Shown in pieces: positions 13,311-42,884 of a DNA stretch of 64,000 nt. The position numbers and the translations under genes are program-made. How positions within the stretch are numbered: position 1 is the first letter of the stretch; each line of letters starts with the position of its first letter. The DNA is from Emticicia sp. CRIBPO. GTDB lineage: Bacteria > Bacteroidota > Bacteroidia > Cytophagales > Spirosomataceae. Under the pieces are notes generated by a model that saw only the letters and a list, made by a program, of their open reading frames with translations, did no database searches and was not told the origin of the DNA. Location of the stretch: positions 62,001-126,000 of the forward strand of contig NZ_JAAAKV010000013.1 of the NCBI RefSeq assembly GCF_009905725.1, in the 5' to 3' direction.

Positions 13311-13397
13311 GGAAAAATCCGGATTGATTAAGGGCATAAATTAAATTGCTTTTTTTAATTGCGAAAGGAAAATGTTCTTTTCTGTTCGCAGAGTGTG

Positions 13398-14561: not shown

Positions 14562-14680
14562 AAGGCTATTTGTATTTTTCTAAGATTAATTTCATTGTTT
14601 TTTTATCAGGGCAATAAGCCGTCGGGACATTCTTTTTCATTTATAATTATTTAATTATTATTCTGTATTTTTTTTTATAG

Positions 14681-14714
14681 CTATCGGAAAGGTTTCCGCA
14701 AAGCTTTCCGATAG
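14681..14714. promoter_or_regulatory. Nested dyads between the lacI-type gene and susC
   Basis: A perfect 11-base inverted repeat, CTATCGGAAAG at 14681-14691 and CTTTCCGATAG at 14704-14714, encloses another, CGGAAA-GG-TTTCCG at 14685-14698. The two hairpins are mutually exclusive. A T-rich run precedes the dyad on the forward strand, so it does not look like a terminator for susC. It could be a regulator site or an RNA switch in the leader of the reverse regulator gene. Confidence 0.45.
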
Positions 14715-14731
14715 TTGACGTTTTTTAATTG

Positions 14732-14746
14732 GTGTCAATTCGACAC
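14732..14746. promoter_or_regulatory. GTGTC/GACAC dyad upstream of susC, candidate AraR site
   Basis: GTGTCAATTCGACAC has perfect 5-base arms. It matches the dyad in front of araB and lies 6 bases upstream of the TTTG of the candidate susC promoter. This upstream position would suit an activator or a silencer. Confidence 0.45.
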
Positions 14747-14752
14747 TATTTG

Positions 14753-14784
14753 TTTGACAAAGCGATGTCCGGGCAATACATTCA
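14753..14784 (+). promoter_or_regulatory. Candidate susC promoter
   Basis: TTTG at 14753-14756, a 20-base spacer, then TACATTCA at 14777-14784, which keeps TA and TT of the TAnnTTTG box but not the final TG. The predicted transcript has a leader of about 90 bases that contains the LacI-type site. Confidence 0.4.
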
Positions 14785-14863
14785 TATCAATGTAACGAAA
14801 ATGCCGATTTGACCTAAAACCCTGAATTATCATTCAAGTTACAAATAATTGTATTATTTAAAC

Positions 14864-14881
14864 ATTGAAATCGATTGAAAA
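14864..14881. promoter_or_regulatory. LacI-type operator abutting the susC start codon
   Basis: ATTGAAATCGATTGAAAA, centred on CG, matches the perfect palindrome in front of the xylanase gene at 15 of 18 positions. It ends on the base just before the susC ATG. Bound repressor would act as a roadblock or cover the translation start region. Confidence 0.5.
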
Positions 14882-18028: not shown

Positions 18029-18042
18029 TGATAGATAAAAAT

Positions 18043-26996: not shown

Positions 26997-28193
26997 ATGC
27001 CATTAGAACAAACCTGGAGGTGGTACGGGCCAAATGATCCGGTCAGTTTATCAGATATCAAACAAGCCGGTGCTACCGGGATCGTCACCGCACTGCATCA
27101 TGTACCCAACGGACAGGTATGGTCAAAGGAAGAAATCCTTATCAGGAAAAACCTCATTGAAGCCAATGGCCTCGTATGGTCGGTCGTAGAAAGTGTGCCG
27201 GTTCATGAAGACATCAAAAAGAGGTCCGGTAATTATCAGCAGTACATCGAGAATTATAAAGAAAGCCTGACCAACCTTGCTGCTTGCGGGATAGATACGG
27301 TTTGCTATAATTTTATGCCGGTGCTTGACTGGACGAGAACAGACCTTGATTTTGAACTTCCGGACGGTTCCACTGCCCTGAGATTTGATGTGGTGGAATT
27401 CTGTGCTTTTGAATGCTTTATCCTGAAAAGGGAAGATGCAAGGTCTTCATACACCGAGGCGGTTTATCAGAAATCTGAAAAATGGTTTTCAGAAGCCTCT
27501 GAAGAAAAAAAAGCCAAACTCGTAAAAAATATCATTGCTGGTCTGCCAGGCAGTGAAGAAAGCTTTACGGTAGAAGAATTCGGCAAGGTTTTAAAGCAGT
27601 ATGACGGCATTTCTGACGAAGACTTACGCAATAATTTATATAGTTTCATCCGTGAGGTAGCCCCGGTGGCAGAAGAGAATGATCTTTTGCTGGCTATTCA
27701 CCCGGATGATCCTCCTTATCCTATTCTTGGGCTGCCCCGTGTGGTCAGTACAGAAGAAGACGCCAAAAGACTTCTGGATGCTTATGACAGCAAAGCCAAC
27801 GGCTTGTGTTTCTGTACAGGAAGCTATGGTGTGAGACCGGATAATGACCTGGCCGGTATGGTAAACAGGTATGGCAACAAAATCAATTTTATTCACCTGA
27901 GAGCGACCAGGAGAGATGAAGAAGGCAATTTCTACGAAGCCGACCACCTGGATGGAGATGTAGATATGTATGCCGTCATGAAAGCCCTCGTACTGGAACA
28001 GGAAAGCAGAAAAGAAGCCGGACGTGAGGATTTAAGGATGCCTTTCAGGCCGGATCACGGTCACAGGATGTTGGATGACCTTTCGCCGGATAAGAAAACA
28101 AACCCGGGCTACACCGCCATCGGCCGTCTGCGTGGCCTTGCCGAATTGAGAGGTCTCGAATTAGGTATAAGAAGAAGTCTTTTAAATGCATAG
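26997..28193 (+). CDS. uxuA: Mannonate dehydratase
   Basis: Dehydrates D-mannonate to 2-keto-3-deoxy-D-gluconate in hexuronate breakdown. At 398 aa it has the normal length. Family motifs include the N-terminal [68 protein letters not shown] and [12 protein letters not shown], which carry the metal-binding Cys and His residues. The kinase for its product follows 35 bases downstream. UxaC and UxuB are not in the window. Together with the xylan genes this suggests use of glucuronic acid side chains of glucuronoxylan, an inference. Confidence 0.97.
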
Positions 28194-28228
28194 AAATTTA
28201 TTAGATTTGTGAAATAAAGTCTTGACTA

Positions 28229-29236
28229 ATGCCTAAAATCGTCACCTTCGGTGAAATCCTGCTGAGGTTATCAGCTCCGAATTATCAGAAAATAGAACAA
28301 GCCCAGTCATTTGAGGCCACTTTTGGAGGCACTGAAATGAATGTGGCCGCTTCTTTGGTTAAATTTGGTTTTGAGGCTCAGCATGTCGGGGTTTTTCCTG
28401 ACAACCTCGTAGGGCAGAAGGCCAAAGCATTTGTCCGTCAGCTGGGTATCGATGATTCGAAGGTCATTCTCGACGGCAAAAGAATAGGCTTGTTTTTCCA
28501 GGAAAAGGGAGCAGTGATGCGTGCCAGCCAGATTGTGTATGACCGGGCTGATTCCGCATTCGCCAATCTCAATCCTGATTGGTTTGACTGGGAGGAAATC
28601 CTGAAAGGGGCGGACTGGTTTCACTGGTGCGGCATTACCCCTGCCTTAAGTAAGGAAGCTGCCCAGGCTTGTCTTGAGGCAGTAAAGGCTGCACAGAAAT
28701 TAGGAATAACTGTTTCTTCAGATATTTATTACAGAAGCAATCTCTGGAATTACGGTAAAACACCCCAGGATATTCTTCCGGAATTAGCTTCTTACTCTAA
28801 TGTCATCCTGGCCAGCAGAAAGAATATTGAAGAAATTTTCGGCATAAAGAGTGTTGAAGAAAAAGGAAGGTTTCAGGAAGCCGGAAGAAAACTGATGGAA
28901 GCTTATCCTTCAGTAAAGAAAGTCATAGATACAGAAAGAATACAGATCAGTGCCTCGCATAACCGGATGAACGCCAGGATGTGGAACGGGGAAGAGTATC
29001 TCAAAACAGGCAATCAGGACATTACCCATATCATAGACCGGATAGGCAGCGGAGACGCTTTCCTGGCCGGTTTTATTTATGCTCAGGTGATGTTTAAGGA
29101 TGATTTTAAATCTCTGGAATATGGAAACGCGGCTTCGGCTCTGAAACATACCATTGAAGGAGATCAGAATCTTGTGGGGATTGCAGAAGTGGAGGCTTTG
29201 GTTGCCGGCGATGCCTCCGGCCGTCTGAGAAGATAA
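28229..29236 (+). CDS. kdgK: 2-Keto-3-deoxygluconate kinase (PfkB family)
   Basis: A 335-aa ribokinase-like sugar kinase that phosphorylates KDG to KDPG for aldol cleavage. The N-terminal substrate motif is FGGTEMNVAASLVKFG and the C-terminal PfkB signature is DRIGSGDAFLAGFIYA, with Asp of GSGD as the base. The direct link to uxuA makes KDG the most likely substrate; plain sequence would also allow other PfkB sugars. The KDPG aldolase gene is not adjacent. Confidence 0.93.
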   Translation: MPKIVTFGEILLRLSAPNYQKIEQAQSFEATFGGTEMNVAASLVKFGFEAQHVGVFPDNLVGQKAKAFVRQLGIDDSKVILDGKRIGLFFQEKGAVMRASQIVYDRADSAFANLNPDWFDWEEILKGADWFHWCGITPALSKEAAQACLEAVKAAQKLGITVSSDIYYRSNLWNYGKTPQDILPELASYSNVILASRKNIEEIFGIKSVEEKGRFQEAGRKLMEAYPSVKKVIDTERIQISASHNRMNARMWNGEEYLKTGNQDITHIIDRIGSGDAFLAGFIYAQVMFKDDFKSLEYGNAASALKHTIEGDQNLVGIAEVEALVAGDASGRLRR

Positions 29237-29248
29237 ATATCAATTAAT

Positions 29249-30394
29249 ATGACAAAAAAACTCTTTCTTCTGGCCGCCATCGGACTGATACTGTTCGAGG
29301 TGCTCAATGTCTACTTTATTATGCCCATGCCCGGAAGTCAGCGGATGAGAAGCATCGACCTGGCTTACTTTTTGTATACCTGGAGATGGGTTTTCCGGGT
29401 GTTTTTCGGTCTTATCCTGTTGGCTACTTTTTTTACCTCCCTCAAGTCATCCAAATGGGTAACCATCATTGCGTTGGTACTGGTGGCAGGCGTTACCTAC
29501 GCATTCAATTTTGTAATGGCAGCAGATGCCATGTTTTATCAGCCTGAAGACTTCAGGATTTTAAACGCCAGAGAAAGTAAGGTAGAAAAAGACAGGCTTG
29601 TGATAGGTGTGGAGCACAACGGCGAAGCCAAAGCGTATCCGATTTCACTGATCGGCTATCACCACCAGGTATTGGATACCCTTGGGGGAAAACCTATAAT
29701 GGTGACATATTGTACCGTTTGCCGGACCGGGCGGGTATTTGAGCCAATGGTAAACGGCAAGCCTGAAAAATTCAGACTGGTGGGGATGGATCATTTCAAC
29801 GCGATGTTTGAAGATGAAACCACGAAAAGCTGGTGGAGACAGGCCAACGGAGAGGCCATCACCGGGAAACTGAAGGGTCAGACGCTCCCTGAGATGCTTT
29901 CTCAGCAAACTACGGTGGAGCAATGGCTGAAGTTATATCCTGAAAGCAAAATCATGCAGCCTGACCCTACCTTTAAAGAGAAATACGACAGCACCGCCAA
30001 ATATGAAAAAGGTAAAAGCAAAAGTGACCTGACCCGTACAGACTCATTGTCGTGGAAAGATAAATCATGGGTGGTGGGTATTGAAACCGGAAAAGGCAGC
30101 AAAGCCTTTGACTGGGTCAGACTTCAGAAAGAAAAAGTAATCAACGCAGAAGTAGGAGACAAGCCTGTGGTGCTGGTTTTGGGTAAGGACAATAAAAGTT
30201 TCTTTGCCTTTGAGCGTCCGGACAAGTCGGCTATTTTTACCTTAAAGCAGGATACCTTGTTGCTGAAGGATCAGAAATATGATTTTAACGGTAAAGCAAC
30301 TGATTCAAAATCAGGATCTTTAAAGAAAATAAAAGCCTATCAGGAGTTCTGGCACAGCTGGAAAACCTTCCATCCTGCTACAGAAAAGTACTAA
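29249..30394 (+). CDS. DUF3179 domain membrane protein
   Basis: A 381-aa protein with three N-terminal membrane segments (about residues 5-26, 40-65 and 70-90), followed by the DUF3179 domain. The most conserved part is the Cys pair in MVTYCTVCRTGRVF, followed by RLVGMDHFNAMFEDETTKSWWRQ. The domain's function is unknown; it should lie outside the inner membrane. It starts 12 bases after kdgK, so it is probably cotranscribed with the uronate genes, but no metabolic link is known. Confidence 0.85.
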   Translation: MTKKLFLLAAIGLILFEVLNVYFIMPMPGSQRMRSIDLAYFLYTWRWVFRVFFGLILLATFFTSLKSSKWVTIIALVLVAGVTYAFNFVMAADAMFYQPEDFRILNARESKVEKDRLVIGVEHNGEAKAYPISLIGYHHQVLDTLGGKPIMVTYCTVCRTGRVFEPMVNGKPEKFRLVGMDHFNAMFEDETTKSWWRQANGEAITGKLKGQTLPEMLSQQTTVEQWLKLYPESKIMQPDPTFKEKYDSTAKYEKGKSKSDLTRTDSLSWKDKSWVVGIETGKGSKAFDWVRLQKEKVINAEVGDKPVVLVLGKDNKSFFAFERPDKSAIFTLKQDTLLLKDQKYDFNGKATDSKSGSLKKIKAYQEFWHSWKTFHPATEKY

Positions 30395-30442: not shown

Positions 30443-30476
30443 TTTGTAGGATTTAATTTAATTATATTTATATTTG
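30443..30476 (+). promoter_or_regulatory. Candidate promoter for the small exported protein gene
   Basis: TTTG at 30443-30446 and a perfect TATATTTG at 30469-30476, with a 22-base spacer (one longer than usual). Its position means the start codon of the following gene must lie downstream of about 30483. Confidence 0.5.
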
Positions 30477-30497: not shown

Positions 30498-31037
30498 TTG
30501 AAGAAACTATTTGGCATATCACTGAGTCTTTTGCTGGTCATGAACATGATCGGTAAGCCCCTTCTTGAATATTATCAGGAAGAGGTGAAGTCTTCTTTGA
30601 GTGAAGAAACAGTGTTTTTCGAAGAAAACGGGGACAAATTAACAGTAAAAGTGCCTTTTCAGTTACCTTATCAGAGTGCTTCCTACAATTTTGAAGATGT
30701 ACAGGATGTGGTAGTTTATAAAGGTAATTTCTACAGAACTGTCAAGAGGGTGTTTGAAAACGACACTTTGTACACCCAGCTTAAAAAAGAATCGATCGAC
30801 AGAAGTAATCTCTTTGATATGGTGAGCCAGGTAACCAAAAACTATGACAAAAAACCTGTTGATCCTATTCAGAATATTATTGATATCTTAAAGACTTTTT
30901 CAAGTAATTACCATACTACTTCAGTTAGCTATTATACTTTTTTCTGGACTGACTGGTTGAAATTCAGCCATACAGAGCCGATAAGTTTATACCACTCCCA
31001 CGCCGGTGTTATCACCGCTCCTCCACCCAGGTGCTAG
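30498..31037 (+). CDS. Uncharacterised small exported protein
   Basis: I do not recognise this protein. Starting at TTG 30498 it has 179 aa with a signal-like N terminus (MKKLFGISLSLLLVMNMIG). The frame is open from 30474 (also TTG), but that codon overlaps the promoter box; the first in-frame ATG at 30540 would remove most of the hydrophobic segment. The body is mixed charged with aromatic residues (VQDVVVYKGNFYRTVKRVF). The tail ends in HSHAGVITAPPPRC, a His/Pro/Cys cluster that could bind a metal; that idea is inference. Confidence 0.65.
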   Translation: MKKLFGISLSLLLVMNMIGKPLLEYYQEEVKSSLSEETVFFEENGDKLTVKVPFQLPYQSASYNFEDVQDVVVYKGNFYRTVKRVFENDTLYTQLKKESIDRSNLFDMVSQVTKNYDKKPVDPIQNIIDILKTFSSNYHTTSVSYYTFFWTDWLKFSHTEPISLYHSHAGVITAPPPRC

Positions 31038-31600: not shown

Positions 31601-32503
31601 ATGAAGTTGATTTTTAAGTCAGTATTTCTGCTGTTGATGGGGGCGTCAATAGCGACGAAAGCTCAAATGCCCCACGATGCTATTTACATGTCTAAAAATT
31701 CTGTTTGTGCCGCTCTGAGTTATGGCAGCAGCAGCTGGACAGAGTACTGGGAAGGAACCTTTAAGCGTGAAAACTTTAACATGGGTAAAAACACTACCCA
31801 GAATGCCATGGTGATGGTAGCTGCAGGTATTACGGATAAACTGAATGTGATTGTGGGGTTACCTTACATCAAGACATCCAACAGTGCCGGAAACCTGATG
31901 GGTATGAAAGGGATACAGGACTTCTCAGCGGTCCTGAAATACCAGATGTTTGTGAAAAACGGATTTGTTTTACACGGAGTTATCGGAGGCTCCCTGCCGG
32001 CGAGTAATTACACGGCTGATTTCTTACCGATGTCTATCGGTTTAAAAGCAAAGACGGCGACCGGAAGGCTGATCGCCAGTTATGCCCACAAATCAGGCAT
32101 TTACCTGACTACACATGCCGCTTATAATGTAAGAAGCAATATAAAGCTCGATAAAGACGGATACCAGGCACACGGGCAGGTTTTTAACACCGATAAAGTG
32201 GATGTTCCTGATGCGATGGATGCCGCCGCCAGACTGGGATTTGAAAACAAGAGTTTTCAGGCTGAGGTTTTTGTTGAGCGTTTTGCGGCTCTGACAGGGG
32301 ATGATATCCGACGTAACGACATGCCTTTTGTGACCAATAAAATGGAAGCGACATCTGTAGGAGCTTATGCCAAGTTTCAGCCGAGACATTTAGGAGTTAA
32401 TGCAAGAGTAGCGTATGTTACCAATGGCCGTAACATGGGACAAAGCACCAGTTATTCTGTAGGTTTATTGTACATATTTGACATTAAAAAGAAAGACAAG
32501 TAA
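31601..32503 (+). CDS. Outer-membrane beta-barrel-like protein (transporter family)
   Basis: A 300-aa exported protein from the ATG at 31601, which yields a clear signal peptide (MKLIFKSVFLLLMGASIATKAQ). The rest alternates short amphipathic strands (KLNVIVGLPYIKTS, VLHGVIGGSLPAS, GRLIASYAHKSGIYLTTHAAYNV) and ends with a strand SVGLLYIFDIKKK, as in meta-pathway phenol-degradation-like and other small barrel transporters. Starts at 31571 (TTG) and 31577 (ATG) are possible but spoil the signal. It leads the cluster and is 40 bases upstream of the haloperoxidase-like gene, so the two are likely cotranscribed. Confidence 0.7.
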   Translation: MKLIFKSVFLLLMGASIATKAQMPHDAIYMSKNSVCAALSYGSSSWTEYWEGTFKRENFNMGKNTTQNAMVMVAAGITDKLNVIVGLPYIKTSNSAGNLMGMKGIQDFSAVLKYQMFVKNGFVLHGVIGGSLPASNYTADFLPMSIGLKAKTATGRLIASYAHKSGIYLTTHAAYNVRSNIKLDKDGYQAHGQVFNTDKVDVPDAMDAAARLGFENKSFQAEVFVERFAALTGDDIRRNDMPFVTNKMEATSVGAYAKFQPRHLGVNARVAYVTNGRNMGQSTSYSVGLLYIFDIKKKDK

Positions 32504-32543
32504 AATTTTGACGCAGTTGAGTATCAATAACGATATATTAAAA

Positions 32544-34085
32544 ATGAAGAATTCCGGTAAACAATTATTTATACTTTTTTTAGGTCTGACGCTGTTTGTC
32601 AGCTCATGTGACACCGTTGTCAAGGACCCCGCTTATGATTCGTACGTTCCGGCTGCTTTGGATGAAAAAGGCGGTACATGGAAAACTTATGTACTGGCTT
32701 CGGCTACTGAAATAGCAGTGGCAGAGCCAACTGCAACAGGATCAGCAGCCTATGCTGATGAAATTAAGAAACTCAAGGCGGCCGTAGACGGTATAACTCC
32801 TGAACAAAAAACAGTGGTTGAGTACTGGGGTGCGGGAGCCGTATTCCGCTGGAATGAAATCGGCCGTGAATTGTGTGCGAGGTATAACAGCCCGCCTGCT
32901 TCTACTCCAGATGGTAAATATCCCCTTCCGGATGCTGCCAACCCACTTAAAGATCCCCGTTTTCCATTTGCTAACCCTCCTTATGCTGCCCGTGCTTTGG
33001 CTTACCTGAGTGTCGCCCAGTATGATGCCCTGGTTTCGGCATGGAATTACAAATACAAATACAACCGCAAGGCTCCTTCAAAAGTAGATGCTTCTGTAAA
33101 AGCTTTACTGGCTGTAAGTGATCTGCCGTCTTATCCGTCAGAAGATGCCGTAGTGGCTTCTGCTTCATATGAAATCCTTAAGGCGATGTTCCCTGGTGAG
33201 GTTCCTTTCCTGGATGCCAAACTGGCCGAACACAAGAATTCAAGACTTTGGGGTGGTATGAACGTGGAAAGTGATGTAACGGCAGGTGCTTCTTTAGGAA
33301 CTTCTGTAGGTCAGAAAGTGATGACAAAGGCGAGAGCTGACGGTATGGGAGCTGCCAACAATCAGGCTGCTACAGCTGATATGATCGCGAATGCCAAGAA
33401 ACTGGGAATTCCTGAAACATGGCTGAGCCAGGAGACCCCGCTCAGACCTGGTATGTTGCCGACTTATGGTAACGTGGCCACCTGGAATTTTGACAAAGCG
33501 ACTTTGGTGTCGATTCGTCCGGCTGCACCACCGGTATTGCACAGCGAAGCCTTTAACAAAGACCTGAATGAATTAAGAGACATAGAGAAAAATCAGACCC
33601 GTGAACAGGCACGCATCGCCAACTACTGGGCCGATGGTGTAGGCAGCTATACGCCTCCGGGACACTGGCACCGAGCGGGAGCAAGATTATGCTATGAAAA
33701 TAAATTCAGCGAAATCAGGACTGCCCGTACCATGGCCTTATTAGGTACTGCAGAAATGGATGCCGGGATTGCATGCTGGGAGGTTAAGTATTATTACTAT
33801 TATCCTCGTCCTCAGCAGTTCGGCTCCAAAACTTCAGTTGGGTTACCCAACTTCCCTTCTTATACTTCAGGGCATTCTACTTTCTCGGGAGCAGCGGCTG
33901 AAGTATTGAGCTCTATATTCCCGACCAGGGCGACTGAATTGGTTGCTCAGGCTCAGGAGGCCTCAAACTCAAGAGTTTATGGTCTGATCCATTACCGTTT
34001 TGATGCTACAGCAGGTCTTGAGCATGGTAAGAAGATCGGTCAATATGCGATTGCAAGAGGAAAAGCCGACGGATCAGGCTTATAA
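32544..34085 (+). CDS. Vanadium-dependent haloperoxidase-like PAP2-superfamily lipoprotein
   Basis: A 513-aa lipoprotein from the ATG at 32544 (MKNSGKQLFILFLGLTLFVSSC, Cys22 lipidated). The C-terminal PAP2 core shows the vanadate or phosphate pocket: Lys415 and Arg422 (KYYYYYPRP, K-x6-R), Ser442-Gly443-His444 (PSYTSGHS), Arg477 and His483 (SRVYGLIHYRFD, R-x5-H). These spacings equal those of vanadium chloroperoxidase and of PAP2 acid phosphatases. The long helical N half, with FANPPYAARALAYLSVAQYDAL, is typical of the haloperoxidase group rather than short phosphatases. Whether it oxidises halides or dephosphorylates cannot be told from sequence. It acts outside the inner membrane. Confidence 0.85.
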   Translation: MKNSGKQLFILFLGLTLFVSSCDTVVKDPAYDSYVPAALDEKGGTWKTYVLASATEIAVAEPTATGSAAYADEIKKLKAAVDGITPEQKTVVEYWGAGAVFRWNEIGRELCARYNSPPASTPDGKYPLPDAANPLKDPRFPFANPPYAARALAYLSVAQYDALVSAWNYKYKYNRKAPSKVDASVKALLAVSDLPSYPSEDAVVASASYEILKAMFPGEVPFLDAKLAEHKNSRLWGGMNVESDVTAGASLGTSVGQKVMTKARADGMGAANNQAATADMIANAKKLGIPETWLSQETPLRPGMLPTYGNVATWNFDKATLVSIRPAAPPVLHSEAFNKDLNELRDIEKNQTREQARIANYWADGVGSYTPPGHWHRAGARLCYENKFSEIRTARTMALLGTAEMDAGIACWEVKYYYYYPRPQQFGSKTSVGLPNFPSYTSGHSTFSGAAAEVLSSIFPTRATELVAQAQEASNSRVYGLIHYRFDATAGLEHGKKIGQYAIARGKADGSGL

Positions 34086-34135
34086 TTTCTAACATTTAAT
34101 CAGGGTAATTACTGATAGATACTACCACGGCAATG

Positions 34136-34169
34136 AAACAGGAAGACGATATACGTGTCTCCCTGTTTT
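34136..34169 (+). terminator. Terminator after the haloperoxidase-like gene
   Basis: AAACAGGAAGAC (34136-34147) pairs with GTCTCCCTGTTT region (34157-34168) with one mismatch, and TTTTC follows. It divides the cluster into two transcription units. Confidence 0.6.
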
Positions 34170-34186
34170 CTGCCGGCTGGGATTGT

Positions 34187-34220
34187 TTTGCCCTTATTTT
34201 TCAAAAATGCTTTAATTTTT
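34187..34220 (+). promoter_or_regulatory. Candidate promoter of the AhpD-like/TonB receptor operon
   Basis: TTTG at 34187-34190, a 22-base spacer and TAATTTTT at 34213-34220 (one base off TAnnTTTG). It lies directly after the terminator and 13 bases before the next start codon. Confidence 0.4.
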
Positions 34221-34233
34221 AAACCAAATATTC

Positions 34234-34800
34234 ATGTCACATATTCCATTGGAGAGCCATTTGCCGGGGATTACGGGTTTGCTTGAATACCGCCAGGACT
34301 CAGCGAAGCCTATCAGAGAACTGACCCAGTTGCTGTTGCGGGGAGAGTCAACACTCACCGAAGCTGAGCGGGAGCTGATTGCCACGTTGGTGTCATCCAG
34401 GAACCAATGCAGGTTTTGTACTACGGCCCACAAATCAGCTGCAGATATTCTGCTGGGAGAATCTGAAACCTGTGAGATGGTGATCAATGACTTTGAATCT
34501 GCACCTGTTGGAGAAAAAATGAAATCCTTGCTGGCTATCGCTGCCCATGTTCAGAAAAACGGCAAGAATGTAACAGAAGGAGATGTCATCAGAGCCAGAA
34601 ACTGCGGAGCTACCGACAGGGAAATTCATGATACTGTATTGATAGCCGCTCTTTTTTGTCTTTACAATAAATATGTTGACGGGATGGCCAGTTTTACTCC
34701 CACTGACCCCGCCTTTTACAAAAAACTCGGAGAAAGAATTACAACCGTTGGTTATAACCGCCTGCCCGGTGGATATGATCAGTTAAAAACCCAATCTTAA
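34234..34800 (+). CDS. AhpD-like carboxymuconolactone decarboxylase-family protein, paralogue 1
   Basis: A 188-aa protein of the CMD/AhpD fold, peroxidase-related branch. The redox motif is Cys59-x2-Cys62 with His66 (NQCRFCTTAH), preceded by TEAERELIATLVSS; EIHDTVLIAALFCLYNKYVDG closes the helical core. AhpD-type proteins use this CxxCxxxH site to relay electrons or remove peroxides. It lacks a signal peptide, so it should be cytoplasmic. It aligns without gaps over the first 70 residues with three further copies at 41160-42884. Four bases separate its stop from the TonB receptor gene. Confidence 0.92.
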   Translation: MSHIPLESHLPGITGLLEYRQDSAKPIRELTQLLLRGESTLTEAERELIATLVSSRNQCRFCTTAHKSAADILLGESETCEMVINDFESAPVGEKMKSLLAIAAHVQKNGKNVTEGDVIRARNCGATDREIHDTVLIAALFCLYNKYVDGMASFTPTDPAFYKKLGERITTVGYNRLPGGYDQLKTQS

Positions 34801-34803
34801 AGT

Positions 34804-37560
34804 ATGAAGACATTATTTACATTGATTTTAGTTTTTATCGGCACGGTCACCTTTGCCCAGAATATTTCAGGGACAGTCACTGATGCAGAAACCAAAAAAC
34901 CACTATTCGGAGCCACTGTAAGTGTAAAAGGCAAATTGTCAGGAACAATTACCGATTCAGATGGCAATTTCTCATTTAAAACTTCTCAGAGTTTTCCTTT
35001 CACTTTAGTGATATCGATGGTAGGTTATGACCGCCAGGAGATCGATGTTAAAAATGATGCTAAAATTAATATAGCCCTGAAAACGGGTTCAGAATTACTA
35101 CAACAAGTGGTAATTTCTGCATCCCGTGTGGAAGAGAACATCCTGAAGTCACCGGTGAGTGTTGAAAAAATGGACATCAGACAGATCCAGCAATCGCCTT
35201 CTGCCAGCTTTTATGATGCCCTGCTCAATGTCAAATCTCTTGACATGGTTACCAGTGGCCTTACCTACAAGCAAATCAACACCCGCGGGTTTAACTCTAC
35301 AGGTAACAGCCGCTTTCTGCAATTGATAGACGGTGTTGACAACCAGTCACCAGGTCTCGGCTTTTCAGTAGGTAACCTTTTCGGCTTGTCAGATATTGAT
35401 GTGGAAAGCGTAGAGCTTATCCCGGGAGCTGCCTCGGCACTTTATGGTCCGGTGGCTTTTAACGGAATGCTCATGACCAAAACAAAGAATCCTTTCGACT
35501 ATCAGGGTCTTTCAGTACAGACGAAATTCGGTATCAACCATATTAATGATGATGCTGTTGGCGTAAAACCTTTTACAGACGTGGCAGTAAGATATGCGAA
35601 GGCTTTTAAAAACCGTTTTGCATTCAAACTAAACGCTTCTTACCTGAAAGGAACAGACTGGCATGCTAATAACTATACAGATATTGACCCGAATACTCCG
35701 GCCAACCTGCGTGGTGACAATAACCCGGGCAGAAACGCCCTGAATATTTACGGAGATGAGGTGGCTCAGACCATAGAAGGTATCGGGAGGGTTTCGAGAA
35801 CCGGATATGAAGAGAAAAGCCTGGTGGAATATGATATTTATTCAACCAAGCTTAGCGGAGCACTACATTATAAAATTACAGAAGGTCTGGAAGCTATTTA
35901 TCAGATCAATTATAGCCAGGGCGTAGGTAACTATACCGGAAGCAGCCGTTTCTGTCTGAAAGATTTCAATCTTACACAAAACAGGATTGAACTTCGTGGC
36001 AGCAGGTTCTTTATCAGGGCTTACTCAACGGCCGAAGAATCTACAGATGCCTACAACTCAAGGTCATTGGGTCAGTTGATCAACAGAACCTGGGTAAAAG
36101 ACCTGTCGGGTAATACGGTTGCTCCGAACGCGGCAGATGCTACCTGGTTTAACCGTTACACAGCCGCCTTCAAAGGAAACGTTAACGGCGTCAGTGCAGC
36201 CAGCCATGCAGCGGCAAGAGCCTTCGCTGATCAGGGTCGCCTGGTGCCGGGTACTGCTGAGTTCGAAACCCAGAAGCAGAAATATATTGATACCAAAGGC
36301 CTACAGGGAGCTGGGGTTCTAAGTAACAGTAAGCTTTATCATGTCGATGCCCAGTATGACCTGAGTGACCTGACGAAAGTGGTTAACGTATTAGTAGGCG
36401 GTAGCTTCAGAAAATACGACATGGAAACGAACGGAACACTGTTTGAAGACCTGGTAAATAAAGTGAGAGTAAATGAATACGGTGTTTTCCTTCAGGCCAA
36501 CAAATCTTTGTTAAGCAACAAGCTGAAACTTACGGCGTCGGCTCGTTATGATAAGAATGAGAACTTTGACGGAAGCTTTACCCCGAGAGCCTCAGCGGTA
36601 TTTTCGCCTTCTGACAAACATAATTTCAGAGCATCGTATCAGACCGGTTTCCGTAACCCGACCGTGCCTGATCAGTACATTAAGCTGAACGTCGGACCTA
36701 TCATTATCCTTGGTGGAGCTCCTGCCAACAGCGTCGGAACAGGTGCTTATGACAATTCATTTACAGCGGCTTCAGTCGGAGCTTTTGCGAGTGGTTTTTC
36801 AGCAGACCTGGCTAAAGGCGTTGCTTTCCCAACTGCAGTGGCCAATAACAAGGATAAACTGGTTAAATCAAACGTAGCCTATATCAAACCGGAACAGACA
36901 AAAGGCTTTGAATTCGGCTATAAAGGATTGTTCGGAGATAAATTGCTGGTGGATGTCAATTACTATCATAGCAGTTACAACAACTTCCTGATCAACCAGG
37001 TAGTGATCAAGCCTAAAAACAGCCAGGTACTGGCAAACGGAGCGATCAACATCGCTGCAGCACAGGAGATCCTTGGCGGAAGTACACAGGCTTATCAGTT
37101 GTATACCAATGCTGCGGATAAAGTAGCGGCTCAGGGGGCTACTTTAGGTCTTACTTATTTCCTGCCTCAGAATTACCGTTTAGGGTTCAATACCACCTGG
37201 TCTGATTTCAGCATCCTGGATGCCAACCCGAATAACATCCCGGCATTTAACACGCCTAAATGGAAAACCAACCTGACAGTGGGTAATGCAAAACTGACCG
37301 AAAACTTAGGATTTAACGTAGCCTGGCACTGGCAGAGCTCTTTTGACTGGTACAGTACTTTCAACGAAAACCGTCCGGGCACTATCCCTGCTTACAGTGT
37401 GATTGACGCTCAGGTTTCTTACAGGGTTCCCTCGATAAAAACAACGGTTAAGCTCGGGGGTAATAACATCGGTAATACCTACATTTCCCAGGCATTCGGT
37501 TCTCCGGGAGTTGGAGCTTTGTATTATGTTTCACTTGTATTTGACGAATTATTCAGATAA
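34804..37560 (+). CDS. TonB-dependent receptor (no SusD partner)
   Basis: A 918-aa outer-membrane receptor. Signal peptide at 1-18 (ending TFAQ), carboxypeptidase-D-like domain at about 20-95 (ISGTVTDAETKKPLFGATVSVKG), plug at about 115-225 (VVISASRVEENILKSPVSVEKMD), then the barrel, ending in LYYVSLVFDELFR. It lacks the SusC-type TonB-box region and is not followed by a susD gene, so it is closer to CirA/siderophore-type receptors in layout. The ligand is unknown; linkage suggests that it takes up the substrate or cofactor of the redox cluster. Confidence 0.92.
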   Translation: MKTLFTLILVFIGTVTFAQNISGTVTDAETKKPLFGATVSVKGKLSGTITDSDGNFSFKTSQSFPFTLVISMVGYDRQEIDVKNDAKINIALKTGSELLQQVVISASRVEENILKSPVSVEKMDIRQIQQSPSASFYDALLNVKSLDMVTSGLTYKQINTRGFNSTGNSRFLQLIDGVDNQSPGLGFSVGNLFGLSDIDVESVELIPGAASALYGPVAFNGMLMTKTKNPFDYQGLSVQTKFGINHINDDAVGVKPFTDVAVRYAKAFKNRFAFKLNASYLKGTDWHANNYTDIDPNTPANLRGDNNPGRNALNIYGDEVAQTIEGIGRVSRTGYEEKSLVEYDIYSTKLSGALHYKITEGLEAIYQINYSQGVGNYTGSSRFCLKDFNLTQNRIELRGSRFFIRAYSTAEESTDAYNSRSLGQLINRTWVKDLSGNTVAPNAADATWFNRYTAAFKGNVNGVSAASHAAARAFADQGRLVPGTAEFETQKQKYIDTKGLQGAGVLSNSKLYHVDAQYDLSDLTKVVNVLVGGSFRKYDMETNGTLFEDLVNKVRVNEYGVFLQANKSLLSNKLKLTASARYDKNENFDGSFTPRASAVFSPSDKHNFRASYQTGFRNPTVPDQYIKLNVGPIIILGGAPANSVGTGAYDNSFTAASVGAFASGFSADLAKGVAFPTAVANNKDKLVKSNVAYIKPEQTKGFEFGYKGLFGDKLLVDVNYYHSSYNNFLINQVVIKPKNSQVLANGAINIAAAQEILGGSTQAYQLYTNAADKVAAQGATLGLTYFLPQNYRLGFNTTWSDFSILDANPNNIPAFNTPKWKTNLTVGNAKLTENLGFNVAWHWQSSFDWYSTFNENRPGTIPAYSVIDAQVSYRVPSIKTTVKLGGNNIGNTYISQAFGSPGVGALYYVSLVFDELFR

Positions 37561-37568
37561 TCTGGCAA

Positions 37569-37591
37569 CCGGCAGGGGTGTGCCCTGCCGG
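37569..37591 (+). terminator. GC-rich hairpin after the TonB receptor gene
   Basis: Perfect 9-base stem CCGGCAGGG / CCCTGCCGG with a 5-base loop, followed by CTTTCTCAACTTTT. As the downstream genes continue in the same direction after 37 bases, it may only attenuate transcription. Confidence 0.65.
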
Positions 37592-37627
37592 CTTTCTCAA
37601 CTTTTAGCACATGAAAATTTTAAAGAA

Positions 37628-39883
37628 ATGAAAATTAAAAAAACATCCGCCATTTTCCTTTACCTGCTTTTAGCAGTCATACTTAAGTCCTGCATATTTG
37701 CTTCAAATTCGAATGATGAGATGGTCAATATTCTTTCAGCGATAAACAAGCAGATGAATGTCAAGGAAAACACCTTTTACCCTGGTGCTGAACTGGCATT
37801 TTTTGATTCCGTTTCCAGAACTTTAGAAAATCCGTACATGATTGCCAAGGCCAATTATTATAAAGGCAGTGCTTTCCTGAAATTAGGCCGGGAAAAAGAG
37901 GCTATAGCCGAGTATGAGAAGCTCTTGAAAGATATGGATCACAATAACGCATCGTATGACGAATTGCTTAAAAATTACGCCATTGCCTGCATGCGTCTGG
38001 GAGAAAGAGAAAACTGTGTGAGAGATCACAGTGCTGAGTCCTGTGTGATTCCTATCAGGGGTATGGGGATTCATAAAAACAAAAACGGTTCAACGAAGGC
38101 CATTGATGCTTATGCGGAGTTGCTTACGAGAGATCCGCTGGACTATGAATCAAGATGGCTGATGAATGTGGCTTATATGACTTTGGGAGAATACCCTCAG
38201 AGTGTGCCGAAGAAATGGCTTATCCCGGATCTGAATAAGGATAAGTCGGGGTATGCCCTTCAGCCGTTTGTAGACGCCGCCCCGGGTTTAGGCCTGAACA
38301 TGCGGAATACTGCGGGCGGGGTGATTGTGGAAGACTTTAATAATGACGGGTACCTGGATATCATCACTTCTGACTGGAGTCTGGAAGGGTCTATGCACTA
38401 CTTCAAGAATGACACCCACGGCAGGTTTATTGACGTTTCAAAACTGTCGGATCTGAGCAGGTTTAAGGGAGGGCTGAATATCATACAGGCTGATTACGAT
38501 AACGACGGGGATGTGGATGTATTTGTTTTGAGAGGAGCCTGGATGGGAAAATTCGGAGAACAACCCAACTCATTGCTGAGAAATAACGGAGATGATACTT
38601 TTACCGACGTGACGATTGAAAGCGGCTTGTTTTCTAAGAAGCCTACCCAGGCCGGAGTCTGGAGAGACTTTAACAATGACGGATGGCTTGATTTGTACAT
38701 CGGGTATGAAAGTTTTCCGAACGGAGGCCTGGTGTATCAGAATGAGCTGTTCATCAATAATAAAAAAGGCGGGTTTGTAGAAGTGGCCGGTAAGGCAAAT
38801 TGCCAGATCATTGATTATGTGAAGGGTGTAACAGCCGCTGATTATAATAATGACGGAAGAGAAGATATTTTCCTTTCGACCATTGGCGGGAGCAGGGTTT
38901 TGCTGAAAAATATGGGCAATAAAGATGGTATCCCTCAGTTTGAGAATGTTACCCAATACGCAGGACTGGCGGATGTCGTGATTCAGACTTTCCCGACCTG
39001 GTTCTGGGACTATGACAACGATGGCTGGCAGGATATTTTTGTTTGTGGTTACCAATTCGGTAAGTCAATCGCCCACTCAGCCGGAACAGAGGCCCTGGGT
39101 GTGCTGAATCAGTCAAGCAAGATGTATTTATACCATAATAATAAGGATGGAACATTTACCAATGTTTCTGAGGAAGCAGGTTTAGGAAAATCGGTTTTTG
39201 CGATGGGCTCTAATTTCGGAGACATTGACAACGACGGATACCTCGATATGTATCTTGGAACGGGTAATCCTGAATATAAATCACTTGTACCGAACAGGCT
39301 GTTCAAAAACACCGGAGACGGCCGTTTTGCGGATGTAACCGTATCTGCCAGGGTCGGAAACCTTCAGAAGGGACACGCCGTGGCGATCAATGACATGGAT
39401 AATGACGGTGACCAGGATATTTTTATAGAAGTAGGCGGTGCTTATGTAGGAGACGCTTATAACAACTCACTTTATCTGAATCCGGGTCAGAACGACAACC
39501 GGTGGATAAGTCTCAGACTGGAAGGTACTGAGGTCAATCGTTCGGCCATAGGCACCAATGTTAAAATCAGTTTCAGGGAAAATGGCGTTAAACGTGTCGT
39601 TCACCGCAATGTTAACTCAGGTGGCAGCTTCGGATCAGGCTCTCTGAGAAGAGACATCGGTATCGGGCAGGCTACGGTGATTGATGAAATCGAGGTTTCA
39701 TGGCCGGGTGGTAAAAACAGAAAACAAGTATTTAAGAACGTTAAACCGAATCAGTTTTTAAAAATCAGGCAAGGAAGTCAGGAGTTGAAAAGTGAAGGCA
39801 TAAAAGAAACAGTCTTTAAGTATGCCGGATCCAATATCCCCATTTGCGAGCCAATAAAAATGAACAGCAAAATGCCTCTTTAA
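37628..39883 (+). CDS. TPR/FG-GAP (VCBS)-repeat protein with C-terminal UnbV/ASPIC domain, lipoprotein
   Basis: A 751-aa surface-type protein from the ATG at 37628; the signal ends in a lipobox-like LKSC. Residues about 60-130 look like TPR helices (AKANYYKGSAFLKLGREKEAIAEYEKLL). From about 200 to 590 a beta-propeller is built of repeats with calcium-binding-like Asp/Asn loops (DFNNDGYLD, DYDNDGDVD, DFNNDGWLD, DYNNDGRED, DYDNDGWQD, DIDNDGYLD, DMDNDGDQD). The end (about 625-715; AIGTNVKISF to VSWPGGKNRKQ) is an UnbV/ASPIC domain as in CRTAC1 proteins. The molecular role is not established for the family. Upstream open codons back to 37511 overlap the receptor gene and are discarded. Confidence 0.9.
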   Translation: MKIKKTSAIFLYLLLAVILKSCIFASNSNDEMVNILSAINKQMNVKENTFYPGAELAFFDSVSRTLENPYMIAKANYYKGSAFLKLGREKEAIAEYEKLLKDMDHNNASYDELLKNYAIACMRLGERENCVRDHSAESCVIPIRGMGIHKNKNGSTKAIDAYAELLTRDPLDYESRWLMNVAYMTLGEYPQSVPKKWLIPDLNKDKSGYALQPFVDAAPGLGLNMRNTAGGVIVEDFNNDGYLDIITSDWSLEGSMHYFKNDTHGRFIDVSKLSDLSRFKGGLNIIQADYDNDGDVDVFVLRGAWMGKFGEQPNSLLRNNGDDTFTDVTIESGLFSKKPTQAGVWRDFNNDGWLDLYIGYESFPNGGLVYQNELFINNKKGGFVEVAGKANCQIIDYVKGVTAADYNNDGREDIFLSTIGGSRVLLKNMGNKDGIPQFENVTQYAGLADVVIQTFPTWFWDYDNDGWQDIFVCGYQFGKSIAHSAGTEALGVLNQSSKMYLYHNNKDGTFTNVSEEAGLGKSVFAMGSNFGDIDNDGYLDMYLGTGNPEYKSLVPNRLFKNTGDGRFADVTVSARVGNLQKGHAVAINDMDNDGDQDIFIEVGGAYVGDAYNNSLYLNPGQNDNRWISLRLEGTEVNRSAIGTNVKISFRENGVKRVVHRNVNSGGSFGSGSLRRDIGIGQATVIDEIEVSWPGGKNRKQVFKNVKPNQFLKIRQGSQELKSEGIKETVFKYAGSNIPICEPIKMNSKMPL

Positions 39884-39907
39884 GGCCCCTGTACCCTGAA
39901 TTATAAT

Positions 39908-41125
39908 ATGAAAACCCAAAACAGTAAAAGTACCAAGCTTGGAATAGCTTTCGCGATTTGTATGATCTGCTATCTTTTAGGTGGCACGGCTTCTACTTTG
40001 ATGTCGGTTTATTTACCCGTGGCCATTCCTGATCTGATGGGCAGAACCCCCACGGAAAGTGAGCTGGGTTCTATAGGAGCCTATCTGAACGCCTCGTTTA
40101 TTTTTGGATGGATGGCCGGAGGTCTGATTTTGGGTATTGTAGGAGATAAAATCGGAAGAGTCAGGACCCTGGCTTTTTCGGCTGTATTATATGGATTATT
40201 TACTTTGTTGACAGCCTCTGTGGGTTCATGGCAGATACTTCTGGTCTACCGTTTCCTGACTGGTTTCGGAGTAGGCGGGGTTTTATTGGTAAGCACCGTC
40301 TATATTTCTGAGATCTGGAAAGAAAGCGGCCGCCCGGTAGCCTTGGGCATCCTGGCTGTTTCATTCCCGATAGGGATTGTGCTCACCGGAGGTTTGAATG
40401 TAATTTTCAAACACTGGAGTTCTGCCTTCTGGCTGGGAATTATCCCCCTTATCCTGGGCTTGATCGCCTGGTTTACTTTGAATGAGTCTGAGAAATGGGA
40501 GAACCTTGCCTACAGCAAGAATAAGGAAAAGGCTACTTTTTCAAAAGAGTCACAAGGCAACCTGGCCATCGGATCGTTGATATTCGGTTCGGTTCTGATC
40601 GGCCTGTGGGCGATATTCTCGTGGCTTCCGACCTGGGTACAAAGTCTTCTGCCTTCAGGGTCAGACGGTCAGAAAGAAAGAGGCATCACCATGATGCTGC
40701 TGGGAATCGGAGGTATCCTCGGAGGAATGATCTCGGGTTTTCTGATCAAAAAACTGGGAGCAAAGAGAACCCTGGCCATGACATTCTCCGGGTGTTTTAT
40801 TGCCTGCGTTATCCTGTTTCTGACCAACAAGACTTTTACCCCTGTCATTTATCTTGAAACAGCTTTCCTTTCTCTTTTCTTTGGCATCAGCCAGGGGAGT
40901 TTGTCCGGGTTCATACCGGAATTGTTTCCGGTTAACATCAGGGCTACGGCCACAGGTTTTTGTTTTAATATCGGCCGGTTTTTTACTGCCACAGCCGTCT
41001 TTTTTGTAGGCAGCCTGGTAGCTTTCTTCGGAAGTTTCGGAAATGCCCTGTTGTCGTTTTCGCTGACTTTCCTGATGGCTCTGGCCGCTATTTTATTTGC
41101 CACGATCTCGACAAAAGCCGAATAA
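39908..41125 (+). CDS. Major facilitator superfamily transporter
   Basis: A 405-aa inner-membrane carrier with 12 predicted helices. The loop 2-3 motif is GDKIGRVRT and the helix 4 region is YRFLTGFGVGGVLLVSTVYISEIW, which resembles the aromatic-acid:proton and sugar-porter groups. The second half contains a matching half-motif (LIKKLGAKRT) and GFIPELFPVNIRATATGFCFNIGR. The substrate is unknown. Its position between the UnbV protein and three AhpD-like genes suggests that it brings the ligand taken up by the TonB receptor into the cytoplasm. Confidence 0.9.
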   Translation: MKTQNSKSTKLGIAFAICMICYLLGGTASTLMSVYLPVAIPDLMGRTPTESELGSIGAYLNASFIFGWMAGGLILGIVGDKIGRVRTLAFSAVLYGLFTLLTASVGSWQILLVYRFLTGFGVGGVLLVSTVYISEIWKESGRPVALGILAVSFPIGIVLTGGLNVIFKHWSSAFWLGIIPLILGLIAWFTLNESEKWENLAYSKNKEKATFSKESQGNLAIGSLIFGSVLIGLWAIFSWLPTWVQSLLPSGSDGQKERGITMMLLGIGGILGGMISGFLIKKLGAKRTLAMTFSGCFIACVILFLTNKTFTPVIYLETAFLSLFFGISQGSLSGFIPELFPVNIRATATGFCFNIGRFFTATAVFFVGSLVAFFGSFGNALLSFSLTFLMALAAILFATISTKAE

Positions 41126-41159
41126 TCAGAATTTAAAAAAAATATAAACAGTACATAAA

Positions 41160-41708
41160 ATGTCGCATATCCCATTAGAAGAAGGCGTACCGGGTATCAG
41201 AAGCCTGGTGATGTACAGACCGGATACAGGTAAACCTTTGTATGAACTCGCTCAGGTGCTGCTGAGAGACGAATCTCCTCTGAGTCCTGCCGAAAGAGAA
41301 CTTATAGCTACTTATGTTTCGCATAAAAACACATGTAAGTTTTGTGCCTCAAGCCATGCAGCAGCGGCCAGGTATTTATTTGACCAGGAATCAGGCGTTG
41401 TAGACCTGGTTCTGGATGATTATCAGTCAGCACCGATCTCTGATAAACTGAAGGCATTGCTTACCATTGCCGGGAGGGTACAGGAAGATGCCCGCACTGT
41501 AAGTGATGAGGACGTGGCCCTGGCCAGAAGCTTTGGTGCCAATGACCGTGATATTCACGATACCGTATTGATTGCCGCTACTTTCTGTATGTTTAACCGT
41601 TATGTCGACGGGCTCGCTACGCTCACTCCTACAGAAGATGCTGCTTATGCACAGATGGGTGAGAGAATGGGGACTATTGGCTATGTATTACCTCAAAAAC
41701 CTGCCTGA
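41160..41708 (+). CDS. AhpD-like carboxymuconolactone decarboxylase-family protein, paralogue 2
   Basis: A 182-aa cytoplasmic protein. CxxCxxxH at Cys59, Cys62 and His66 (NTCKFCASSH) is in the same place as in the other three copies. It opens like paralogue 1 (MSHIPLEE) and shares SPAERELIATYVS and DRDIHDTVLIAATFCMFNRYVDG. Its stop overlaps the next start (TGATG), so the two are coupled. The copies may form hetero-oligomers, since family members build trimers or hexamers; that is inference. Confidence 0.93.
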   Translation: MSHIPLEEGVPGIRSLVMYRPDTGKPLYELAQVLLRDESPLSPAERELIATYVSHKNTCKFCASSHAAAARYLFDQESGVVDLVLDDYQSAPISDKLKALLTIAGRVQEDARTVSDEDVALARSFGANDRDIHDTVLIAATFCMFNRYVDGLATLTPTEDAAYAQMGERMGTIGYVLPQKPA

Positions 41709-42241
41709 TGGCCTATATTTCACTGGATGAAGCCTTGCCTGGCATGCGTGGGCTGTTGAGTTACAGACCCGTTATTGCTCCGCCTTTAATGAGCCTGATG
41801 CAGGTGCTTATGCGAAGCAACGAAGGCCTGAGCATGGGAGAGAGGGAAGTTATTGCTACTTATGTCTCTTCACTTAATGATTGTTATAACTGCCACAGCG
41901 TCCATGGTGAAGTAGCTCAGTGTTTTTATGAAAGCCAGCCTGACCTGATTAGTCAGATTAAGGCAGATTTCAGATTTGCTGAAATATCTGATAAGTTCAA
42001 GGCCCTTTTGGACATTGCAGGAAGTGTGCAGAAAGGTGGAAAATATGTTACCGAAGCACAGGTCAGCAAAGCTAAGGAGGAAGGGGCTACTGATCTCGAA
42101 ATTCACGATACCGTATTGATTGCCGCCCTTTTCTGTTTCTATAACCGTTATATAGATGGCCTGGGGATTGTTTCGAAAGATACCCCGGAATCATTGAAAC
42201 AAAGAGGTAAAATGATGGCTGAACAAGGCTACGGGCATTGA
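41708..42241 (+). CDS. AhpD-like carboxymuconolactone decarboxylase-family protein, paralogue 3
   Basis: The shortest copy, 177 aa. The redox site reads NDCYNCHSVH (Cys59, Cys62, His66). The helix before it differs from copies 1 and 2 (SMGEREVIATYVSS), and SSLNDC is shared with copy 4, making 3 and 4 the closest pair. An extra His follows Cys62, so the local environment of the thiols is changed. Translationally coupled to paralogue 2. Confidence 0.92.
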   Translation: MAYISLDEALPGMRGLLSYRPVIAPPLMSLMQVLMRSNEGLSMGEREVIATYVSSLNDCYNCHSVHGEVAQCFYESQPDLISQIKADFRFAEISDKFKALLDIAGSVQKGGKYVTEAQVSKAKEEGATDLEIHDTVLIAALFCFYNRYIDGLGIVSKDTPESLKQRGKMMAEQGYGH

Positions 42242-42335
42242 TTTCAGAGAATGGTACCAAGAAAAGAGAAATTACGATGCTAGAAAGAGTCGGTCTTTGA
42301 TCACTAAAAGATTTAATCACAAATCACCCATAAAA

Positions 42336-42884
42336 ATGGCTCATATAAAAGTAGACGAACAATTGCCGGGTATCAGGGGGCTGATGGATTTCAGGCCTTT
42401 AACGGCCAAACCTTTGAATGCTCTGGCAGACGCACTGCTCCGTACAGATGAAGGCCTGAGTAAAGGAGAAAGAGAGCTGATTGCCACTTTTGTTTCTTCA
42501 TTGAACGATTGTTTTTTCTGCCAGAATATTCACGGAGCTGTCGCAGGGTATTATCATCCTGAAGACGAGGACCTCGTGGATAAGGTAAAAAGGGATTATA
42601 AAAATGCTCCTGTAACCGAGAAAATGAAAGCTCTGCTTTCTATAGCTGCCAATGTTCAGAAAGGTGGGAAATTTGTATATGAACAGCAGGTGGAAGACGC
42701 CAGGGCACTTGGGGCTACAGACATTGAAATACATGATACGGTTCTGATAGCGGCTGCGTTTTGTATGTTTAACCGTTATGTGGACGGTTTGGGTACCTTT
42801 GCCCCGGACAATCCCGGAATGTACCGCGAAAGAGCCAGAAAAATAGTCGAAGAAACGGGCTACGGAGGCTCATCACCCAAATAA
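42336..42884 (+). CDS. AhpD-like carboxymuconolactone decarboxylase-family protein, paralogue 4
   Basis: A 182-aa copy starting at the ATG at 42336, where the family N terminus MAHIKVDEQLPGIRGLMDFRP begins; 13 upstream codons back to 42297 are open but have no counterpart. The redox motif is NDCFFCQNIH with Cys59, Cys62 and His66. The C-terminal EIHDTVLIAAAFCMFNRYVDGLG is nearly identical to the other copies. It closes the operon; a strong terminator follows. Confidence 0.93.
   Translation: MAHIKVDEQLPGIRGLMDFRPLTAKPLNALADALLRTDEGLSKGERELIATFVSSLNDCFFCQNIHGAVAGYYHPEDEDLVDKVKRDYKNAPVTEKMKALLSIAANVQKGGKFVYEQQVEDARALGATDIEIHDTVLIAAAFCMFNRYVDGLGTFAPDNPGMYRERARKIVEETGYGGSSPK

Follow-up and report, generated by a model that had tools for sequence, protein, structure and literature searches.

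What brings a haloperoxidase-like lipoprotein, four AhpD-like proteins, a TonB-dependent receptor and an MFS carrier together on one strand? The question is raised by a 64,000-nucleotide stretch of Emticicia sp. CRIBPO (contig NZ_JAAAKV010000013.1, positions 62,001 to 126,000; hereafter "the window", whose own numbering is used for coordinates), in which a preliminary description had proposed a candidate redox or halogenation system at 31601-42884. The list of open reading frames (ORFs) and the Pfam matches agree with the nine plus-strand genes of that description and with the families guessed for them. Their order is probable outer-membrane barrel (OMP), haloperoxidase-like lipoprotein (VHPO), AhpD1, TonB receptor, FG-GAP/UnbV lipoprotein, MFS carrier, AhpD2, AhpD3 and AhpD4, and the ORF translations place likely starts at 31601 (OMP), 32544 (VHPO), 37628 (UnbV) and 42336 (AhpD4). 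The boundary initially drawn does contain these genes but is too tight: a DUF3179 gene and a leader gene that we call c4 lie upstream, on the same strand, and accompany these genes in relatives too, so that the cluster comprises about 11 genes. It is composed of two modules, each of which is common without the other nearby: the OMP-VHPO pair on one side, and the AhpD, receptor and MFS genes on the other. Because the same parts recur together in relatives, they apparently form a real system for the uptake and processing of a small molecule.

Association between the modules was examined in 222 genomes of the Spirosomataceae, using profile matches with E values up to 1e-60 for the MFS carrier and up to 1e-120 for VHPO. 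VHPO was found in 178 of the 222 genomes and the MFS gene in 98, as a single copy except in one genome with two pieces at contig ends. With kinship ignored, VHPO was present in 97 of the 98 genomes that have the MFS gene versus 81 of the 124 that do not. The two genes were considered linked when they lay at most 16 kb apart, with one VHPO row per genome (the VHPO positions of G010, G014, G045 and G060 came from a separate search). Linkage was observed in 38 of the 97 genomes having both genes, against about 0.6 expected from random placement, and in 8 of the 13 genera having both. Linked genomes over genomes with both genes were 8/8 in genus g31, 5/5 in g27, 8/9 in g17, 11/22 in g5, 2/3 in g9, 2/2 in g1 and 1/1 in both g24 and g3; the figures were 0/3 in g2 and 0/1 each in g6, g29 and g13. 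Of the 10 genomes in the genus to which the window belongs, seven have VHPO and two have the MFS gene. On the strength of these occurrence and linkage counts, the idea of one fixed operon was dropped.

The arrangement of the parts was examined in two sets of loci. The first contained 61 loci: the window itself and 60 that had been retrieved for their VHPO relatives. OMP was found in 55 of the 60 loci bearing a VHPO family gene, and the AhpD, receptor and MFS genes in only 8 of the 61, downstream of VHPO in seven and upstream in L055; L041, L046, L050, L051 and L053 are examples in which the module follows the OMP-VHPO pair. In 17 of the 61 loci, DUF3179 adjoined genes for AhpD or for the OMP-haloperoxidase pair. 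In the second set, made of 20 MFS loci both linked and unlinked to VHPO, the unlinked loci keep c4 (or a variant, c6), AhpD genes, the receptor and the MFS gene; DUF3179 is often kept as well, and FecA-like or UnbV genes are present in some. Counts of gene parts at the MFS loci, as well as at the c4 and wide AhpD loci described below, are lower bounds, as overlapping frames were dropped (the MFS gene of L102 is one example).

Beyond the family, the AhpD subfamily has members in 27 of the 392 genomes searched, spread over 20 of 179 genera (E up to 1e-50). When ten genomes were scanned at E up to 1e-25, the four AhpD matches of the window's own genome (G000) all fell inside the cluster, while similar clusters held the matches of the remaining genomes. 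A wide set was then formed by the best 80 of at least 577 AhpD loci, ranked by likeness to AhpD2; 66 of the 80 are at least 15 kb long, several come from one genus, and some genomes are shared with the other sets. An MFS gene was present in 70 of these 80 loci, a receptor in 51, DUF3179 in 37 and VHPO in 15, or 18 if a second type of haloperoxidase-like gene is also counted. The 15 loci with VHPO include Larkinella, Spirosoma, Runella and Rhabdobacter, and also Segetibacter koreensis, Terrimonas pollutisoli, a Ferruginibacter metagenome-assembled genome and Algoriphagus resistens. Linkage thus recurs in the Chitinophagaceae and Cyclobacteriaceae, according to the lineages looked up for Segetibacter and Algoriphagus; Terrimonas and Ferruginibacter presumably belong among them as well. 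Co-occurrence outside this strain, the main test suggested in the preliminary description, is therefore found both within the family (the 38 linked genomes) and in two other families. Cultured strains with the cluster include Larkinella arboricola, Runella aurantiaca, Rhabdobacter roseus, Segetibacter koreensis and Algoriphagus resistens.

The FG-GAP/UnbV gene (37628-39883; CRTAC1-like lipoprotein) had been described as a TPR/FG-GAP/UnbV gene whose co-occurrence was to be checked. The FG-GAP_3 and UnbV_ASPIC matches exceed their cut-offs and the TPR matches do not. The gene does lie between the receptor and MFS genes in L031, L095, L094, L159 and L204, but it is an optional part, present in only 5 of the 80 wide loci.

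Some further variants were detected among these loci. L140:1434-12363 is a distant version with an MFS gene, four AhpD genes, a TonB receptor, an FG-GAP/UnbV gene and a second-type haloperoxidase-like gene without a Pfam match, all on one strand. A MetE-like gene lies in the AhpD cluster of L222, L225, L227 and L235, and a putative esterase in the first three (families were scanned in L225). A lone AhpD of the subfamily adjoins an L-lysine 6-transaminase gene at L139:8641-10606, and genes of similar size precede a lone AhpD in L135, L137, L138, L142, L143 and L145-L147. Cluster parts were also seen in loci labelled Flavobacterium (L218), Williamsia (L171), Verrucomicrobia (L230), Dependentiae (L237) and Acidobacteriaceae (L240), those of L218 being 68-88% like their Spirosomataceae counterparts; either transfer or mislabelled or mixed bins would account for them.

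What might the surface module do? OMP (31601-32503) has no Pfam or NCBIfam family match, and its signal-peptide-like start and gene context make it a probable outer-membrane barrel and partner of VHPO. VHPO (32544-34085) is a predicted lipoprotein of the PAP2 superfamily (42.2 bits; cut-off 27.2). The full K-x6-R / SGH / R-x5-H site attributed to it could be located at K437-x6-R444, S464-G465-H466 and R499-x5-H505, with all seven vanadate ligands kept. In an alignment of 86 relatives, the ligand set KRSGHRH was intact in 76 and altered in nine, while one sequence (L085) is truncated. The lipobox cysteine was aligned in 85 of the 86, of which a simple lipobox pattern matched only 56. Eight of the nine altered copies adjoin an intact copy (L039:1440-3038, L040:14072-15577, L048:6534-8042, L099:16209-17732, L156:726-2234, L205:13663-15171, L207:13621-15204 and L211:13689-15197); they mostly have an OMP gene of their own, one example of an altered set is KRSDQES, and such second copies are likely non-catalytic paralogues.

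PAP2 phosphatases carry the same seven-ligand set. One might thus consider that VHPO acts as a phosphatase or pyrophosphatase on the outer surface and that the cluster imports an organic compound that is phosphorylated or esterified in some other way, an explanation that would fit the acid phosphatases found as next solved relatives (7f17, E 3.1e-13) and the NCBIfam matches of VHPO, which are phosphatases at scores far below cut-off. The best solved relative, however, is the vanadium haloperoxidase of Zobellia (4cit, E 1.7e-31), which aligns with profile positions 143-509, that is, over most of the length, and none of the recurrent neighbours was recognised as a phosphate transporter; on these grounds we regard a phosphatase as quite improbable. 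The ligand motifs of the Zobellia galactanivorans vanadium iodoperoxidase (4cit, 4usz) align with the VHPO profile. Differences are that about 140 N-terminal positions of the profile remain unaligned and that the window protein is a predicted lipoprotein with an OMP partner; in addition, the VCPO_2nd domain was not found in it at E 0.001. Vanadium haloperoxidases oxidise halides using peroxide, according to PMC11871015, which names the Zobellia enzyme.

The AhpD-like proteins are AhpD1 (34234-34800; no signal peptide seen), AhpD2 (41160-41708), AhpD3 (41708-42241; an optional paralogue) and AhpD4 (42336-42884). The expected CxxCxxxH motif was located in each of the four. Their scores are 40.2, 44.6, 45.2 and 54.2 for CMD (cut-off 23) and 85.9, 85.1, 89.7 and 85.7 for TIGR01926, whose cut-off of 81.8 is passed by all. 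For TIGR00778 (cut-off 27.8), AhpD1 (33.1), AhpD2 (42.3) and AhpD4 (30.4) lie above and AhpD3 (22.4) below. An alignment and a tree were made from 354 distinct sequences out of 395. Two clades have one member per locus, AhpD1 with 103 sequences in 103 loci (support 0.997) and AhpD2 with 100 sequences in 100 loci (support 0.782), and the commonest order, AhpD1-receptor-MFS-AhpD2-AhpD, was found in 38 loci. The AhpD3 group (18 loci, support 0.267) and the AhpD4 group (support 0.0) are poorly resolved, and 128 sequences fall outside the four groups. Judging from the tree, AhpD1 and AhpD2 are old paralogues that are separately kept and non-redundant; the possibility of four redundant antioxidant copies was dropped in view of these one-per-locus clades.

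Nine residues are invariant in the 354 sequences: Glu47, Asn57, Cys62, His66, His133, Phe142, Tyr148, Asp150 and Tyr175. Residues specific to each clade flank His66 on both sides in AhpD1 and AhpD2. Both CxxC cysteines are present in 302 sequences; in the other 52 the first is replaced by Thr, with a Cys one place earlier in 32 and no Cys there at all in 20. Loss of this cysteine speaks against a simple AhpD-type disulphide peroxidase action, and the alignment suggests a specialised subfamily in which only one thiol is essential. With the AhpD and peroxidase-related enzymes of TIGR01926 (2prr, 3c1l, 2pfx), the window proteins share a TIGR01926 score above cut-off and the Glu, Cys and His of the AhpD motif, invariant here. 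They differ in the extra invariant His133, replaced by Trp in both 2prr and 3c1l, in Tyr148, for which these two have Met or Val, and also in that several paralogues per locus, and copies lacking the first Cys, are found here.

These features bear on whether the locus serves oxidative defence, with VHPO making hypohalite against competitors and the AhpD proteins shielding the cytoplasm from the resulting peroxides. Such a role would suit the families as named, VHPO-like and AhpD-like, and CMD proteins are grouped with antioxidant genes of Zobellia on fresh algae in one report (PMC9296495). It would leave unexplained the receptor and the MFS carrier, which accompany AhpD in the wide loci mostly without VHPO, and it does not sit well with the missing first cysteine. 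Hence, we consider defence very unlikely.

The receptor (34804-37560) has TonB barrel and plug matches above their cut-offs, its orthologues are 58-66% identical, and it is an orphan, as previously noted: no SusD gene adjoins it among the window ORFs. Its score was 120.7 for SusC/RagA (TIGR04056; cut-off 368.25) and 114.5 for TonB-dependent haem receptors (TIGR01785; cut-off 316.85). In nine of the wide loci a SusC/SusD pair stands in place of a missing receptor. Among the 66 long loci, 47 had only the receptor, eight only SusD, none both and 11 neither (p 1.3e-5, kinship ignored). SusC/SusD pairs are usual for nutrient uptake. The SusC/SusD loci of Bacteroidota share with the cluster a TonB receptor, surface lipoproteins and an inner-membrane carrier, and some lineages swap in the pair itself. 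In contrast with them, the window receptor has no SusD and remains below the SusC cut-off, and no carbohydrate-active enzyme was recognised in the recurrent neighbour families listed, which are partly annotated. The MFS carrier (39908-41125; MFS_1, 133 bits, above cut-off) has as its best NCBIfam match the aromatic acid/H+ symporters of TIGR00895, at 149.4 versus a cut-off of 418.55, and a relative of it weakly matches the rhizoferrin importer FslD.

Upstream of both modules in the window, the DUF3179 gene (29249-30394) encodes a protein with hydrophobic N-terminal stretches, a PF11376 score of 189.7 bits, above cut-off, and a C155-x2-C158 pair that is invariant in an 11-row alignment; family knowledge suggests a membrane thiol protein. 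DUF3179 is listed with UxxC/T selenoprotein forms in PMC9312934. Unlike the forms listed, the proteins seen here have a conserved CxxC and a tie to the AhpD/VHPO cluster. Genes for a mannonate dehydratase (TIGR00695) and a pfkB-family kinase (26997-29236) end 12 bases 5' of the DUF3179 gene, and a hexuronate operon may run into the cluster at this point.

c4 (30498-31037) lies 533 bases from the OMP ORF. Its own ORF opens at 30474, with a likely TTG start at 30498, and encodes about 179 amino acids with a hydrophobic N-terminal stretch and a C-terminal PPP or proline run; the protein has no Pfam or NCBIfam match and is 17-27% identical to the 19 relatives with which it was aligned. A genome-wide scan of 10 genomes detected 19 c4 genes, in nine of them. 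The next gene is OMP2, a second barrel-like gene, in five cases, OMP in four, a FecA-like receptor gene in four, AhpD in three and UnbV in one, which makes 17; the two others precede a gene for a membrane protein of about 146 amino acids without a Pfam match, a gene that is also close to VHPO in L037 and L062, and to a second-type haloperoxidase gene in L089. Both modules, where apart, can carry their own c4: G058, of genus g32, has three, heading OMP-VHPO, the AhpD module and OMP2. In a class-wide sample, c4 was present in 50 of 296 genomes. Among 30 of the 67 matches listed, one per genome (two of them, the window and G039, had been part of the profile), the next gene was OMP in 11, OMP2 in four, a second-type haloperoxidase gene in four, AhpD in one and something else in one.

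Regulation of c4 was examined in 96 upstream sets; the 118 c4 genes gathered from loci fetched for VHPO or AhpD are a biased set. At a Lys/Arg start pattern, 39 began with TTG, 17 with GTG and 10 with ATG; 30 had no such pattern. A dyad, TTGA-N12-CCAT, was present in 24 of the 96 versus 0.3 expected and was rejected as an operator, being the coding start of c4 itself. After removal of the coding bases, only the promoter-like TATATTTG and TTCAGG stood out; the latter occurs in 23 of 96 regions versus 3.3 expected and may be a terminator or a regulatory sequence. The pattern TTTG-N22-TATATTTG, based on the promoter consensus of Bacteroidota, matches just 5' of c4 in the window (30443-30476, plus strand). 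This match is weak because the window contains seven in all and 6 of 100 shuffles reach as many.

Altogether, the reading that we favour, and hold tentatively, is that of one conserved system assembled from two exchangeable modules, in which surface oxidation would be followed by uptake and by thiol chemistry in the cytoplasm. Lipid-anchored VHPO, together with OMP, would use peroxide to oxidise or halogenate an organic compound outside the cytoplasm. The TonB receptor (or a SusC/SusD pair elsewhere) and the MFS carrier would then carry this product, or an oxidised compound related to it, inward to the cytoplasm. There, AhpD1, AhpD2 and AhpD3/4 would act as thiol enzymes with invariant Cys, His and Glu, either one after another or together in a mixed complex, while DUF3179 and c4 would be envelope helpers. 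We infer the surface location, the direction of transport, halide oxidation, the class of substrate and the link between the VHPO product and the AhpD proteins, and the place given to each step, with VHPO outside, import through the receptor and carrier, and AhpD inside, leans on what is known of the families.

Several observations weigh against this two-module scheme. The modules lie apart in all 40 genomes with both genes of genus g32, which is probably Dyadobacter; 81 genomes of the family hold VHPO without the MFS gene, and G053 has the MFS gene but no haloperoxidase at 1e-120. In the wide set, 62 of the 80 AhpD loci lack a haloperoxidase-like gene within 9 kb. The MFS carrier and the receptor reach no substrate-specific NCBIfam cut-off, and no shared operator was found in the 96 regions upstream of c4. 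Finally, c4 precedes other TonB receptors in nine of the 30 class-wide loci; therefore, it is not exclusive to the system, and is a companion of it and of some other TonB receptors.

The first of these observations would be expected if two independent systems often stood side by side, OMP-VHPO with a job of its own and the AhpD, receptor and MFS genes as a separate uptake pathway. Each does occur alone, as the 81 genomes and genus g32 illustrate, and the Mucilaginibacter loci of the wide set have AhpD without VHPO. Independence is difficult to reconcile with linkage so far above random placement, in several gene orders and in three named families, and with the partners common to both modules (c4, DUF3179, FecA-like and UnbV). 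We consider it unlikely.

The company that c4 keeps admits another explanation, acquisition of a metal, siderophore or haem: the receptors and the MFS carrier would import an iron compound, and the thiol and DUF3179 proteins would help to reduce or release it. In its favour, besides the FslD match, FecA-like receptors are preceded by c4 too, including one at another site in the genome of the window (L111), and in other classes seven of the nine receptors headed by c4 were scanned and gave TonB-hemin as best match in six and SusC in one, all below cut-off and from partial genes. None of these matches comes anywhere near its cut-off, the window receptor fits SusC no worse than TonB-hemin, and nine of the wide loci have a SusC/SusD pair instead of the receptor; an iron system seems improbable to us.

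A broader form of the two-module scheme can be envisaged, which we regard as doubtful. It is a phylum-wide pathway in which VHPO would activate an organic molecule outside, TonB and MFS proteins would import it, and three ancient AhpD paralogues would form a heteromeric complex performing non-peroxidase thiol chemistry, such as reductive dehalogenation. As part of this same doubtful proposal, the complex would use a new catalytic set made of Cys62, His66, Glu47, His133, Tyr148 and Asp150.

Elsewhere in the window, an alpha-L-fucosidase with F5/8 domains and a SusC-like/SusD pair (11223-19854) form an ordinary-looking, unrelated glycan locus, and a tRNA-Val was the sole match in an Rfam scan. 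A full-text literature search, with most subscription papers outside its coverage, yielded no published description of the cluster.

If the two-module scheme is true, it would provide a role for families that so far lack one, namely for the haloperoxidase-like lipoproteins of non-marine Bacteroidota, for DUF3179 and c4, and for an AhpD subfamily whose paralogues stay separate over families and classes. It would also mean that a vanadium enzyme can serve nutrient uptake, rather than defence or natural-product synthesis.

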